Positions 21,451 to 26,987 of a stretch of 39,535 bases of DNA are shown here, in pieces. The stretch's first letter is position 1. Each line of letters begins with the position of its first letter. A program made the translations under genes and the position numbers. A model generated the notes under the pieces. That model ran no database searches and was not told the DNA's origin. It worked only from the letters and a program-made list of their open reading frames with translations. The DNA comes from Rhizonema sp. NSF051 (GTDB lineage: Bacteria > Cyanobacteriota > Cyanobacteriia > Cyanobacteriales > Nostocaceae), in assembly GCA_029379265.1 (NCBI GenBank), contig JAQYWN010000002.1:1-39535 (forward strand), given 5' to 3'.

Positions 21451-22143
21451 TCATAGGGAACGTTTATCTTTCTCAGAATCGTCATCATCAAAAAACCCCC
21501 AATCATCATCTTCAGCTTGATTGGTAGTCGGTGTTTGATAGGGAGGTACGATGACTCGGTAATCAGCATCGTATACGGACTCGGTTTTTCCCACTCCAGA
21601 ATCTTTTGGTTCTTGGTAGCCGTATGAGTAAGCTGAGCTTGACTTAGAACTGCTTTTAGAGTCTTGTTGACGTTCGTTGGTTTTAGAGTCATTAACCCGT
21701 GTATTTTGAGAATTAGGAGCAGACGCAACATTCTTGCTTTCCTCAAAGTCCCAATCATCATCTTGACTGTTCTCTATATCCCAATCATCTGACGCGTTAC
21801 TTGCTCTGGACTGTGTTTTGCTTGTCGGCTCTTGAGATGCTTCTGTTCGAGGTATGGGTTCTCTCCTGGAAGTTGAATTGGCACTCGTATTAGAGGCTGA
21901 TGATTTGAGCGAGGTTTGACGTTGTTGTCCCACAAAGTAATTTGACAATTTAAACAAACTCGCTATGAGTAAAGATGTAAAAGTACCAGCCGCAGTGCTA
22001 AACAAAATCCATAACGCTAATGGTAAAGACTGCGTCCGCATACCCAAAAACGTAAGTGGTAGGACAGGTGACCAATTTTGCACTAACAACAGCGTTAGTG
22101 ATCCCATCACCCCTACTAATAAAAATAAGCGAATTACAGCCAT
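21451..22143 (-). CDS. Two-TM protein with acidic, low-complexity cytoplasmic tail
   Basis: The protein has 230 residues. Two membrane segments (about 4-22 and 41-66) resemble the LapA/DUF1049 layout (VQNWSPVLPLTFLGMRTQSLPLALWILFSTAAGTFTSLLIASL). The remaining 160 residues are disordered and rich in Ser, Asn, Asp and Gln. They contain three acidic Trp motifs: SDDWDIE, DDDWDFEE and DDDWGFFDDDD. Such proteins are conserved in cyanobacteria without known function. The repeated DDDW motif suggests a docking site, which is inference. The start codon lies seven bases from a heptamer array at 22150. Confidence 0.75.
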   Translation of the reverse strand: MAVIRLFLLVGVMGSLTLLLVQNWSPVLPLTFLGMRTQSLPLALWILFSTAAGTFTSLLIASLFKLSNYFVGQQRQTSLKSSASNTSANSTSRREPIPRTEASQEPTSKTQSRASNASDDWDIENSQDDDWDFEESKNVASAPNSQNTRVNDSKTNERQQDSKSSSKSSSAYSYGYQEPKDSGVGKTESVYDADYRVIVPPYQTPTTNQAEDDDWGFFDDDDSEKDKRSL

Positions 22144-22305: not shown

Positions 22306-22926
22306 TTATCCTTGCCATCTCTGAATTGGAATGCAGTCAATCTCTAGTTGATCTAAAACACGAGCAACTACAAAATCAACTATATCCTCTATGGTTTGGG
22401 GTTTGTGATACCAAGCGGGAATAGCTGGGACAACTCTAGCTCCTGCTTCTGCCAAAGTTGTTAAATTCCGGAGGTGAATCAGGCTAAAAGGAGTTTCTCG
22501 AGGAACAATCACTAGTTTTCGTCCTTCTTTTAGCTGTACGTCCGCAGCTCTTTCTAGGAGATCTGAACTCAAGCCCGCAGCTAGCTTTGCTACGGTACTC
22601 ATACTACATGGAAGCACAATCATCCCTAAGGTACGGAAGGAACCACTGGCAATATTTGCTCCAACATCACCCCACGGATGACAACGTAATTTACCGACTC
22701 CTTCCACTCCTGCTTGCTGCCGCCAAAACTGTTCTTGTTGAATAGGTTCTACTGGCATACGGATGTTTTGCTCGGATTGCCAAACCATATATGTTGACTT
22801 GGAAGCTACTAATTCAATCCCGTAATTGGCTTCTAACAAAAATTTAAGCGCACGAACAGCATAGATGAGACCAGATGCACCTGATATTCCTAAAATGAGC
22901 GGTTTAGTATTATTTAGAACTGACAT
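22306..22926 (-). CDS. ubiX: Flavin prenyltransferase UbiX
   Basis: UbiX joins a dimethylallyl group to FMN to make the prenylated flavin cofactor of UbiD-type decarboxylases. The 206 residues show the FMN-binding PLILGISGASGLIYAVRAL near the N-terminus, GDVGANIASGSFRTLGMIVLPCSMSTVAKLAAGLSSDLLERAADV, the KEGRKLVIVPRETPFSLIHLRN motif with the conserved Arg and Glu, and AIPAWYHKPQTIEDIVDFVVARVLD. Length and motifs are normal. It lies downstream of the RNB-family gene on the same strand, with heptamer repeats between them. Confidence 0.95.
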   Translation of the reverse strand: MSVLNNTKPLILGISGASGLIYAVRALKFLLEANYGIELVASKSTYMVWQSEQNIRMPVEPIQQEQFWRQQAGVEGVGKLRCHPWGDVGANIASGSFRTLGMIVLPCSMSTVAKLAAGLSSDLLERAADVQLKEGRKLVIVPRETPFSLIHLRNLTTLAEAGARVVPAIPAWYHKPQTIEDIVDFVVARVLDQLEIDCIPIQRWQG

Positions 22927-23039: not shown

Positions 23040-25412
23040 CTAGTCCCTTCTTTCTCGATCAACATAGGATTCTAGGTCGTCGGTCTCAAGATCCATATCA
23101 TGTGGTAAATAGATATCTGAGGTTTGACCGTTAGGAATACTAAAGTTTCTAATTGACGAACCATCATTACCGACTGTGACCAAATCAATTTGTTGACGGT
23201 AATAATCGACACTTTTTACTTGTACGGCTACACGATCGCCCAACCTGTAAGAGGCACGATTTTTGCGACCAAACAGTGCTTGTTGTCTGGCGCGATATTC
23301 ATACCAATCGTCTTTGAGAGAACTGACGTGTACCAATCCTTCTACCCGTAAAGGCACGCGTGGATGCCCTTCTGTGCCGGACTCAGGTGGTAGAACTTCT
23401 ATTTCTACAAAGAACCCATAAGATTGGACACCAGTAATTACACCAGTGAAAACCTCACCAATACGCTGTTTCATCAAAGAGGCTCTTTGCAATCCTGCTA
23501 AATCAGCTTCGGCTTCTTGGACTTCTTTCTCGCGATCATTCAGTTGAACAATCACCCTAGTCAAATCAGTTTGAAGTTCTTGTTGTAATTCTGGTGGTAG
23601 AACATTCCAGTTAATTTCACTGTGACATGAGGAGGAGCGAAGGTTTACACGCTCTTTTACACGAGTATTGCGGCGATCGCGCCCGTGTTCGAGTAACGCA
23701 TAAAATACTCTCTGCATCAGTAAATCTGGGTAACGACGCAAGGGAGCGTGAGCATGAGTATAACCCTCTGGTAATGCTAGACCAAAGTGAGGTCCTTTAT
23801 TTGTGCTATACAGTGCTTGCTTGAGCGTATCCTGTAATAAATAAGTTAAAACTTGCTCGGATGGAGATTCTGCAAAAACCCTGGTCAAATGTTGATAATC
23901 TATGGGTTGAACATCAACTTCTGGATCTAATGCTAGTTCAATGCCTAAATTAATTGCTAATTTTAGCATTTCTTGGACATCTTCAGCATCAGGTGCGCCT
24001 TGGACTCGCCAAATTGTTGGAACAGCGAGAGCATTCAAGTGAGTCGCCATCAATTGATTAACGAGTAGTGCAAACTCAGTTAATAGCGATCGCACGGGTA
24101 AATCGTTCACGACGACACACCCTAAAATGCCCTCATCGTTGTAAGAGTTTTGGCTTGGAGGTAAATTTAACTGCAAGCAACCACGAGTTAAGCGTACTTG
24201 TTTCAACTTCAGTTGCACTGTTTTCAGTTGTTGAAGCAACTCAACCACTTCCGCCGAAGAGTCTGTCGATTGGTCAGTGAGAATTTTTTCTGCTTCTTGT
24301 TCGCTCAAATGCTCGTTTACGTTGACGACACTTGGTTGAATTTCCCACTCCAGTACTTCTCCGGATTTTGAATCAATCGCGATTAAAAAAGACATTGCTA
24401 AGCGATCATTTCCTGGTGAGAGAGAACAGCGTTCTACCACCACTTCTGGAAACATTGGCAGAACGAGTTCTCCCAGATACACCGATCTCCCCCGTCTGAG
24501 TGCTTCTCGATCCAGGGGTTCATCTGGTTGGATATGGTGAGAAACATCAGCTATGTGAAAGCCCAATTGCCAAAGCCCAGCTGCCGTTTTTTCCAAACTC
24601 AAAGCGTTTTCTACCATTTTGGACTTATCAAAAGCACTGCTACCTAAGGTTATGGTGTACTTTTGACGTAAATCCAGTCTATTTTTTAGGTCTGCTTTTA
24701 ATAGCTTTTTCGGTAACTTTGCCGCTGCTTCTTGAACAGAATCAGGGAAACTTCGTGATAGATCGTGTTTACAAGTTACTAAATCTATGTCCGCCGCCGC
24801 TTCTGCATCGCTCCCCAGAATTTGTACTACACGACCCACTGGCGGATATTGGGCAAGTGGGTATCGCAGGACTTCTACGTGAGCGAGGTGATCGATCGCC
24901 TGTTCCAAGTTAAGGTTTGATGCTAAAAGTTTGAGTTCAAATAATAGGCGATCATCTAGAGGTACGGCACGAAAACCACCTTCTACTTGCTTGACTCGTG
25001 CTAGTAAAGTGTGATTCGAGCGTTCTAGAATCAGCTTGACTTCTCCCTCTGGAGAACGGCGACGACTACCTTCTTTAAGAACCTTTACTAGAACCCGATC
25101 TCCGTTCCAGGCGTTACTTAGATGGCTTTCCCGGATATAAATATCCTCAGATCCTTCCACATCTTGAATTGCAAAGCAAAAACCTTTGCTAGAACATCTC
25201 AGCTTTGCTTCAATTAATCCTTCTTCTGAAATCCGGCGATACTTCCCGCGATCTTTTACTAAAATCCCGATTTTCTCCAGTACTTCCAAAGCGATGTGAA
25301 GTTTTTGTAATCCGTCTTCATCTTCACAACCAAGTTTCTTCTCCAACAATTTACGAGCTACCAATTTATCATCGGTGAAATTGGTAAGGAGTGTAGCGAT
25401 TGAAAATTCCAT
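23040..25412 (-). CDS. RNB (RNase II/R) family protein with altered active site
   Basis: The protein has 790 residues with RNase II/R architecture: N-terminal winged-helix and cold-shock-like domains (about 1-200), an RNB domain (about 240-590) and a C-terminal S1 domain (about 655-750, IGEVFTGVITGVQSYGFFVEI). Recognisable RNB features are GFHIADVSHHI, CSLSPGNDRLAMSFLI and THAHAPLRRYPDLL. RNB nucleases need an aspartate cluster in a TIDxxxxxDxDDA motif. Here that segment reads TITLGSSAFDKSKMVENA (T253-A270), with Thr for the first Asp and Glu-Asn (E268, N269) for the Asp pair, so normal 3'-5' exonuclease activity is doubtful. The frame is intact, so this is not a decayed gene. I withhold a gene symbol. 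Confidence 0.88.
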   Translation of the reverse strand: MEFSIATLLTNFTDDKLVARKLLEKKLGCEDEDGLQKLHIALEVLEKIGILVKDRGKYRRISEEGLIEAKLRCSSKGFCFAIQDVEGSEDIYIRESHLSNAWNGDRVLVKVLKEGSRRRSPEGEVKLILERSNHTLLARVKQVEGGFRAVPLDDRLLFELKLLASNLNLEQAIDHLAHVEVLRYPLAQYPPVGRVVQILGSDAEAAADIDLVTCKHDLSRSFPDSVQEAAAKLPKKLLKADLKNRLDLRQKYTITLGSSAFDKSKMVENALSLEKTAAGLWQLGFHIADVSHHIQPDEPLDREALRRGRSVYLGELVLPMFPEVVVERCSLSPGNDRLAMSFLIAIDSKSGEVLEWEIQPSVVNVNEHLSEQEAEKILTDQSTDSSAEVVELLQQLKTVQLKLKQVRLTRGCLQLNLPPSQNSYNDEGILGCVVVNDLPVRSLLTEFALLVNQLMATHLNALAVPTIWRVQGAPDAEDVQEMLKLAINLGIELALDPEVDVQPIDYQHLTRVFAESPSEQVLTYLLQDTLKQALYSTNKGPHFGLALPEGYTHAHAPLRRYPDLLMQRVFYALLEHGRDRRNTRVKERVNLRSSSCHSEINWNVLPPELQQELQTDLTRVIVQLNDREKEVQEAEADLAGLQRASLMKQRIGEVFTGVITGVQSYGFFVEIEVLPPESGTEGHPRVPLRVEGLVHVSSLKDDWYEYRARQQALFGRKNRASYRLGDRVAVQVKSVDYYRQQIDLVTVGNDGSSIRNFSIPNGQTSDIYLPHDMDLETDDLESYVDRERRD

Positions 25413-26195: not shown

Positions 26196-26987
26196 ATGTT
26201 GGTTCAACTTCAGAACTTGTATCCCCAAGCCTGTCTTATTTCTGAACTAGTACAAATGTATCAAGGAAAATACATTGTCCGAGCGAGCGTGCAAATTGAA
26301 GGTGTAACCCGCGCCACTGGTATGGCTAGCGCGGAAACTCTGGAAGATGCAGAAGACAGAGCTCGGAGTAGGGCGTTGATGGTTCTAGGAATCACAGGTA
26401 CGTCACAAAAAGCGGCAGCAATTCCCTCAGAACCAATAACGCAAGTCCAGCCAATCCCTTCCTTATCAAAGACAAGTGGATTAAACGAATCTGCGTATTC
26501 CGCCACAATAAACTCTATTCCCCAAACAGAAACAACTGTCAAACTTAAAACTGACACCATCAGGCAAGACTTAGACAGACGTGCCGTTAGCAGTCAACAA
26601 CAAGCTCAGTTTGATTTTCCTGAAGACAATTTGGAAGTTGTCTCCGGTGAACTAAAAGACAATCAGTCGCTACCAGAGATTGCTCCCAGTAACGTTACAC
26701 CATTTCCTCCACGAAGTTATACTCCTTCTCAACAGGATGTTGTAACGCCAACAGCAAAGAAAAGCAAGAAGACTGAACCAGTCGATCTTTCAGATGCCAT
26801 CACTAAAACTGATATCGAAATGCAGCGTTTGCACTGGACACCAGAGCAGGGACGGGAATATCTGAAAAAGACTTATGGCAAGATAGCCCGCAGTTTACTG
26901 AAACCAGAAGAATTGTTAGATTTCCTCAAATACCTAGAATCTCAGCCATCTGAACCCACACCCCCAGATCCTATCGCTGGGTTTTGA
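26196..26987 (+). CDS. Conserved cyanobacterial protein with N-terminal Rad52-like segment (function unknown)
   Basis: The protein has 263 residues. The N-terminal 70 residues (YPQACLISELVQMYQGKYIVRASVQIEGVTRATGMASAETLEDAEDRARSRALMVLGI) alternate strands and a helix in a way reminiscent of Rad52-type single-strand annealing or double-stranded-RNA-binding folds. The middle (about 75-200) is low-complexity and rich in Ser, Pro, Thr and Gln. The C-terminal 55 residues form a compact conserved motif around MQRLHWTPEQGREYLKKTYG and LLKPEELLDFLKYLESQP. This C-terminal motif also occurs, from my knowledge of cyanobacterial proteins, at the end of putative ssDNA-annealing proteins. A DNA-handling role is inference. 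Convergent with clpP. Confidence 0.75.
   Translation: MLVQLQNLYPQACLISELVQMYQGKYIVRASVQIEGVTRATGMASAETLEDAEDRARSRALMVLGITGTSQKAAAIPSEPITQVQPIPSLSKTSGLNESAYSATINSIPQTETTVKLKTDTIRQDLDRRAVSSQQQAQFDFPEDNLEVVSGELKDNQSLPEIAPSNVTPFPPRSYTPSQQDVVTPTAKKSKKTEPVDLSDAITKTDIEMQRLHWTPEQGREYLKKTYGKIARSLLKPEELLDFLKYLESQPSEPTPPDPIAGF

Follow-up and report, generated by a model that had tools for sequence, protein, structure and literature searches.

The zam locus and its neighbours

The window analysed here is a stretch of 39,535 nucleotides (contig JAQYWN010000002.1, positions 1-39,535; assembly GCA_029379265.1) from Rhizonema sp. NSF051. Its minus strand carries an open reading frame that runs uninterrupted from ATG to stop, spans exactly 23040-25412, and encodes 790 aa. 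The product, hereafter window Zam, matches the Pfam profiles RNB (3.6e-79), OB_RNB (2.7e-20), CSD2 (1.9e-15), and S1 (1.3e-8), in line with the first-pass annotation, which had described a full-length, intact frame with an RNB and an S1 domain. The gene, its domains, and its neighbours on the same strand are:

23040..25412, minus strand: zam, 790-aa RNB-family protein with OB/CSD1, CSD2, RNB, and S1 domains (ORF, Pfam, tree, HMM)
25008..25217, minus strand: CSD1 region, aa 66-135 (OB_RNB match at aa 70-127; dN/dS 0.00-0.03)
25167..25199, minus strand: RCSSKGFCFAI, aa 72-82, the redox loop that holds C73 and C79 (conserved in Zam orthologues; redox role from PMC9145284)
24744..24899, minus strand: CSD2, aa 172-223 (Pfam PF17876)
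23688..24680, minus strand: RNB domain, aa 245-575 (Pfam PF00773)
24603..24656, minus strand: degenerate active-site segment TITLGSSAFDKSKMVENA, aa 253-270 (MAFFT and hhalign alignments)
23181..23348, minus strand: S1 domain, aa 689-744 (Pfam PF00575; dN/dS 0.00-0.07)
22306..22926, minus strand: next gene downstream of zam, from the ubiX family of flavin prenyltransferases (in 124/125 zam loci over 5 kb)
21451..22143, minus strand: 230-aa ORF, third in the order zam-ubiX-ORF (in 122/125 zam loci)

Zam, as described by Thomas et al. 2022 (PMC9145284), is a clade of cyanobacterial RNase II/R-family proteins whose active site is highly degenerate, and a number of results concern the place of the window protein in it. 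First, in a tree of RNB and CSD columns from which the active site was left out, a branch with an SH-aLRT of 99 separates the 75 Zam rows, window protein included, from the others. A second tree of 703 columns, also without the active site, gives the same split between Zam and canonical proteins (SH-aLRT 98). Second, the protein scores 1064 bits against an HMM of non-Nostocales Zam, versus 194 against one of canonical cyanobacterial Rnb. Third, the cysteines C73 and C79 of the L12 loop in CSD1, described as invariant, redox-active, and needed in vivo (PMC9145284), are present in 194/196 and 193/196, respectively, of the Zam orthologues that we collected, and their numbering in window Zam is identical to that in PCC 7002 Zam. 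Fourth, the protein has the CSD1-CSD2-RNB-S1 architecture of Zam. Because the cysteine loop and the tree place it in this clade, the finding concerns a member of a known family that has already been published. The gene is an ordinary Nostocales zam and its product a new sequence of that family, whose degenerate site was reported in 2022 (PMC9145284), so the novelty of the gene itself is low. What it adds is knowledge at the level of annotation, as databases score a published pseudo-nuclease family as RNase II/R. Window Zam reaches 441.6 bits with the NCBIfam model RNase_R (cut-off 597.85) and 70.8 with RNase_B (cut-off 641.9), although falling below these equivalog cut-offs is a weak test, since the canonical Rnb of the same genome does so too.

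The genome encodes exactly two RNB proteins. The second one (L002), encoded directly after rpsR, is its canonical enzyme: it keeps the canonical segment TIDDESTTEIDDG, which window Zam does not. A canonical RNB protein likewise accompanies the published Zam of Synechocystis (sll1910) and PCC 7002 (A1543), which share with window Zam the clade, the domain order, C73/C79, and the degenerate site, with no difference in kind. There is one protein of the RNase E/G family in the genome. None of the 125 zam genes in our neighbourhood survey has rpsR beside it, and an Rfam search of the whole window gave no match. The 230-aa ORF had no Pfam or NCBIfam match; it probably corresponds to alr1242 of Anabaena (221 aa), a signature protein. 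On the other side of zam, a gene for an slr1353-family protein (26196-26987, plus strand) is divergent from it across an intergenic region of 783 bp, and is found in 120/125 zam loci.

Active-site residues and selection

The first-pass annotation had read residues 253-270 as TITLGSSAFDKSKMVENA and concluded that the canonical aspartate cluster was absent. Both points stand: in the MAFFT alignment, and also in the profile-profile alignment with hhalign, the RNase II residues D201, D207, D209, and D210 correspond to G257, M266, E268, and N269. No Asp occupies any of the four catalytic positions, and the sole acidic residue among them is E268, at the position of D209. Two details needed correction. 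The first Asp, thought to be replaced by Thr, aligns with Gly257, T255 being the conserved Thr two positions ahead of it, and the loop, described as about two residues longer, exceeds that of Escherichia coli RNase R by three. The replacement of the Asp pair by Glu-Asn (E268-N269) was read correctly and is nearly fixed in Nostocales, with Asn at the D210 position in 116/116 and Glu at the D209 position in 115/116 of the orthologues compared. Canonical RNB proteins have Asp at these positions in 23/23 and 22/23 cases. With this regularity, against D/D in canonical proteins, the E-N pair is not a product of chance. Sequencing error is excluded because the same segment recurs, in frame, in three genomes of the genus (98-99% identical).

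Other landmarks of the family remain. RNase II Y253, R500, and E542 are retained as Y312, R559, and E635, which are invariant among Nostocales Zam. Canonical RNase II/R (E. coli rnb and rnr; cyanobacterial Rnb, including sll1290 and L002) has the same fold family, domains, and equivalents of these three residues, but window Zam has lost the Asp cluster and the canonical group has no CSD1 redox loop. Additional acidic residues in the RNB domain (E315, D336, D426, E427, and D478) are conserved specifically in Zam, and E268 is fixed throughout the group of Zam with the E-N pair. Most of this group (131/137) has at least one acidic residue in the loop, and 65/137 have Asp or Glu at the D201 position, which makes an unusual metal site conceivable for other members. 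Within the genus of the window the loop acids are not conserved, since the segment of the congener L003, TLGSGTNGKSKMVENA, has kept E268 as its only acidic residue. An AlphaFold2 model computed with 52 Nostocales orthologues had a mean pLDDT of 43, at which the pocket is unreadable.

Window Zam is under strong purifying selection, the active-site loop excepted. Against congeners and Nostocales relatives, the dN/dS of zam is 0.08-0.10, in agreement with what the first-pass annotation had deduced from the intact frame. It is lowest in CSD1 (0.00-0.03) and S1 (0.00-0.07), rises to 0.11-0.20 in the rest of RNB, and reaches 0.24-1.6 in the 14-codon active-site loop. Loop differences among congeners are clustered (4/10 and 5/17), and neighbouring changes may represent one event. 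Column entropies are ordered in opposite ways in the two groups: the active-site segment averages 2.87 bits in Zam versus 0.80 in canonical RNB, and CSD1 averages 0.76 versus 2.35. The RNB domain of Zam is less conserved than its CSD1 and S1. Low dN/dS together with a variable loop implies that selection maintains the protein for something other than its catalytic loop.

Candidate functions of window Zam

We consider it likely that window Zam has no catalytic activity and acts as an RNA-binding partner of RNase E that is switched by redox state. The protein would be an RNase R-like scaffold that has lost its 3'-5' exonuclease centre: with three catalytic Asp gone and D209 replaced by Glu, the canonical way of holding the metal pair is no longer available, and D209N alone abolishes the activity of RNase II (PMC3293843). 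We infer that no residual nuclease activity is left. What was retained would serve the binding of RNA and partners, namely the domains CSD1 (with its redox cysteines), CSD2, and S1, together with Y312 and R559 in the channel. C73 and C79 would form a disulphide depending on how photosynthesis sets the redox state, and Zam would bind RNase E, RNA, or both through its CSD and S1 domains, thereby changing RNA turnover. The redox switching, the necessity of the cysteines, and the binding and activation of RNase E are carried over from other strains and would hold here by analogy. The phenotypes reported for zam concern photosynthesis, pigment, and acetazolamide (PMC9145284).

An RNA-binding pseudo-enzyme or regulator had been among the functions proposed from the sequence. 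This part fits what has been published on Zam and the pattern of a nearly invariant CSD1 and S1 next to a loop that ranks with the most variable parts, and is opposed by the exonuclease activity that a review reports for Anabaena Alr1240. Purified PCC 7002 Zam showed no nuclease activity (PMC9145284). According to the review (PMC10989914, on Zhou et al. 2020), Alr1240 degrades unstructured RNA in the manner of RNase II, and it also binds and stimulates RNase E. Measured exonuclease activity, which the first-pass annotation had named as a refutation of its proposal, is thus on record second-hand for Alr1240 and negative for PCC 7002 Zam, and the two reports, as far as the review describes the former, conflict. 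Thomas et al. identified Alr1240 as a Zam (PMC9145284). Gene order leads to the same probable orthology, because alr1240-alr1241-alr1242 form one transcription unit (PMC10287535) that matches the conserved order zam-ubiX-ORF. The gene alr1242 encodes a 221-aa hypothetical protein (PMC2823733), and an ORF of 221 aa takes the third place at L021 and L035. The Zam encoded at these two loci are close relatives of Alr1240 with the segment ...INSDTKVxENA, without the Asp cluster. Alr1240 therefore shares its gene order with window Zam, but the RNA degradation described in the review is not what the sequences of its relatives predict. Taking the review's account as it stands, either the activity comes from a contaminant, or it is weak and uses an unusual site, or the argument from sequence fails. 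Two further observations count against our explanation: the conservation of Y312, R559, and E635 goes beyond the needs of a pure scaffold, and the negative assay used a preparation of Zam that was prone to aggregation (PMC9145284).

Among the alternatives, a substrate holder comes closest to a dead partner of RNase E and is in fact a variant of it, so that the chances given to the two overlap. The dead RNB channel would thread RNA 3' ends and protect or present them, and binding to RNase E would be secondary. Channel residues Y312 and R559 are conserved though catalysis is lost, and fungal RNase II pseudonucleases do work as RNA-binding proteins (PMC8097288). Yet purified PCC 7002 Zam bound none of the RNA substrates tried (PMC9145284), and the RNB domain shows lower conservation than CSD1 and S1 do; we regard this version as rather doubtful. 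Less probable still is an exonuclease, weak or specialised, whose metal site has been rearranged and is built from E268 and loop acids or from acids of the E315/D336 type. The activity that the review attributes to Alr1240 (PMC10989914), the fixation of E268, the Zam-specific acids, and the invariance of Y312, R559, and E635 in Nostocales argue for it. The effect of D209N in RNase II, the inactivity of PCC 7002 Zam, the variable loop acids in the genus of the window, and three proteins (L184-L186) that lack most of the segment and still fall within the Zam clade argue against it. The different metal arrangement that the first-pass annotation had allowed for finds little support in this genus, where the L003 segment keeps only E268. 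Lastly, a decaying pseudogene or sequencing artefact, to which lost catalytic residues and a variable loop might point, has a negligible chance and is refuted by matches in 60/60 relatives, nearly all with one open frame, by the dN/dS of the gene, and by the segment shared by three congeners.

The dead partner of RNase E that we favour resembles fungal Ssd1 and inactive Dis3L2, RNA-binding regulators in which Asp residues were repeatedly lost and cold-shock domains kept; Dis3L2/Ssd1 proteins lost their active site on at least four occasions (PMC8097288). The fungal proteins differ from Zam in being eukaryotic, derived from Dis3L2, and of independent origin, and a redox-cysteine loop of the Zam type is not described for them (PMC8097288).

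Catalytic aspartates in other cyanobacterial orders

Thomas et al. stated that the canonical site is found in no Zam and concluded that none has nuclease activity (PMC9145284). Among our 196 Zam sequences, none has all four Asp and 176 have no Asp at these positions, but nine have two or three. A targeted survey, in which the Zam redox-loop motif was the criterion of inclusion and is therefore present in all proteins, found the three Mg ligands D201, D209, and D210 (PMC8097288) in 30/30 Zam loci of the order of G252 (L235-L264) and in 30/30 of the order of G067 (L265-L294), as well as in the single genome from the order of G081 (L295). These proteins have the motif TIDGPxxxxAIDDAL, and the only Asp missing is D207, replaced by Val, Ala, Thr, or Ser. 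One exception is known, a Zam from G252's family outside the 60 loci (L155), with His at the D201 position. D209-D210 are also kept in the order of G105 (30/30, L297-L326) and the family of G039 (11/11, L327-L337, two of these loci being from one gene), where the D201 position is, in all proteins but one, Lys, a reversal of charge that each group has fixed. Judged by these residues, the universal absence of the active site in Zam does not hold across the class, which is new with respect to PMC9145284.

In the tree of 703 columns, the Zam that keep D209-D210 form one clade among degenerate lineages (SH-aLRT 95); in the first tree they make two small groups near the base. Their depth thus differs between trees, some deep branches have supports of 80-93, and long branches are present. 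As regain of three Asp is unlikely and this clade sits inside degenerate lineages, several independent losses are suggested, and the loss of the active site looks stepwise and repeated, comparable to that in fungal Dis3L2/Ssd1. D207 may have been lost first; in some groups Lys would then have replaced D201, and in the lineage of the window E-N would have replaced D209-D210. Tentatively, as a reading slightly more likely to be wrong than right, Zam may descend from a working RNase R-like enzyme with an added redox role in CSD1/S1 that all lineages kept, whose nuclease centre was lost stepwise and repeatedly, so that at least two orders may still cut RNA. If so, living bifunctional and dead forms could be compared directly. 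The clades with D-x-D-D, K-x-D-D, x-x-E-N, and none offer a natural panel for both the conflict over activity and the claim of universality, and a bacterial parallel to the fungal transition from Dis3L2 to Ssd1. That three catalytic Asp survive in particular clades of other Zam is the result most worth following.

Some lineages have gone further or elsewhere. The Zam of family f39 (L184-L186) have lost most of the active-site segment (RIGNAAAISI). In L189-L191 and further Zam of family f2, the match to window Zam breaks at residues 257-261, and lineage-specific insertions occupy the former loop. Finally, a third, shorter RNB-like protein with the segment PTSLDLDDGVW is encoded in the genome G089 (L218) alongside Zam and Rnb.
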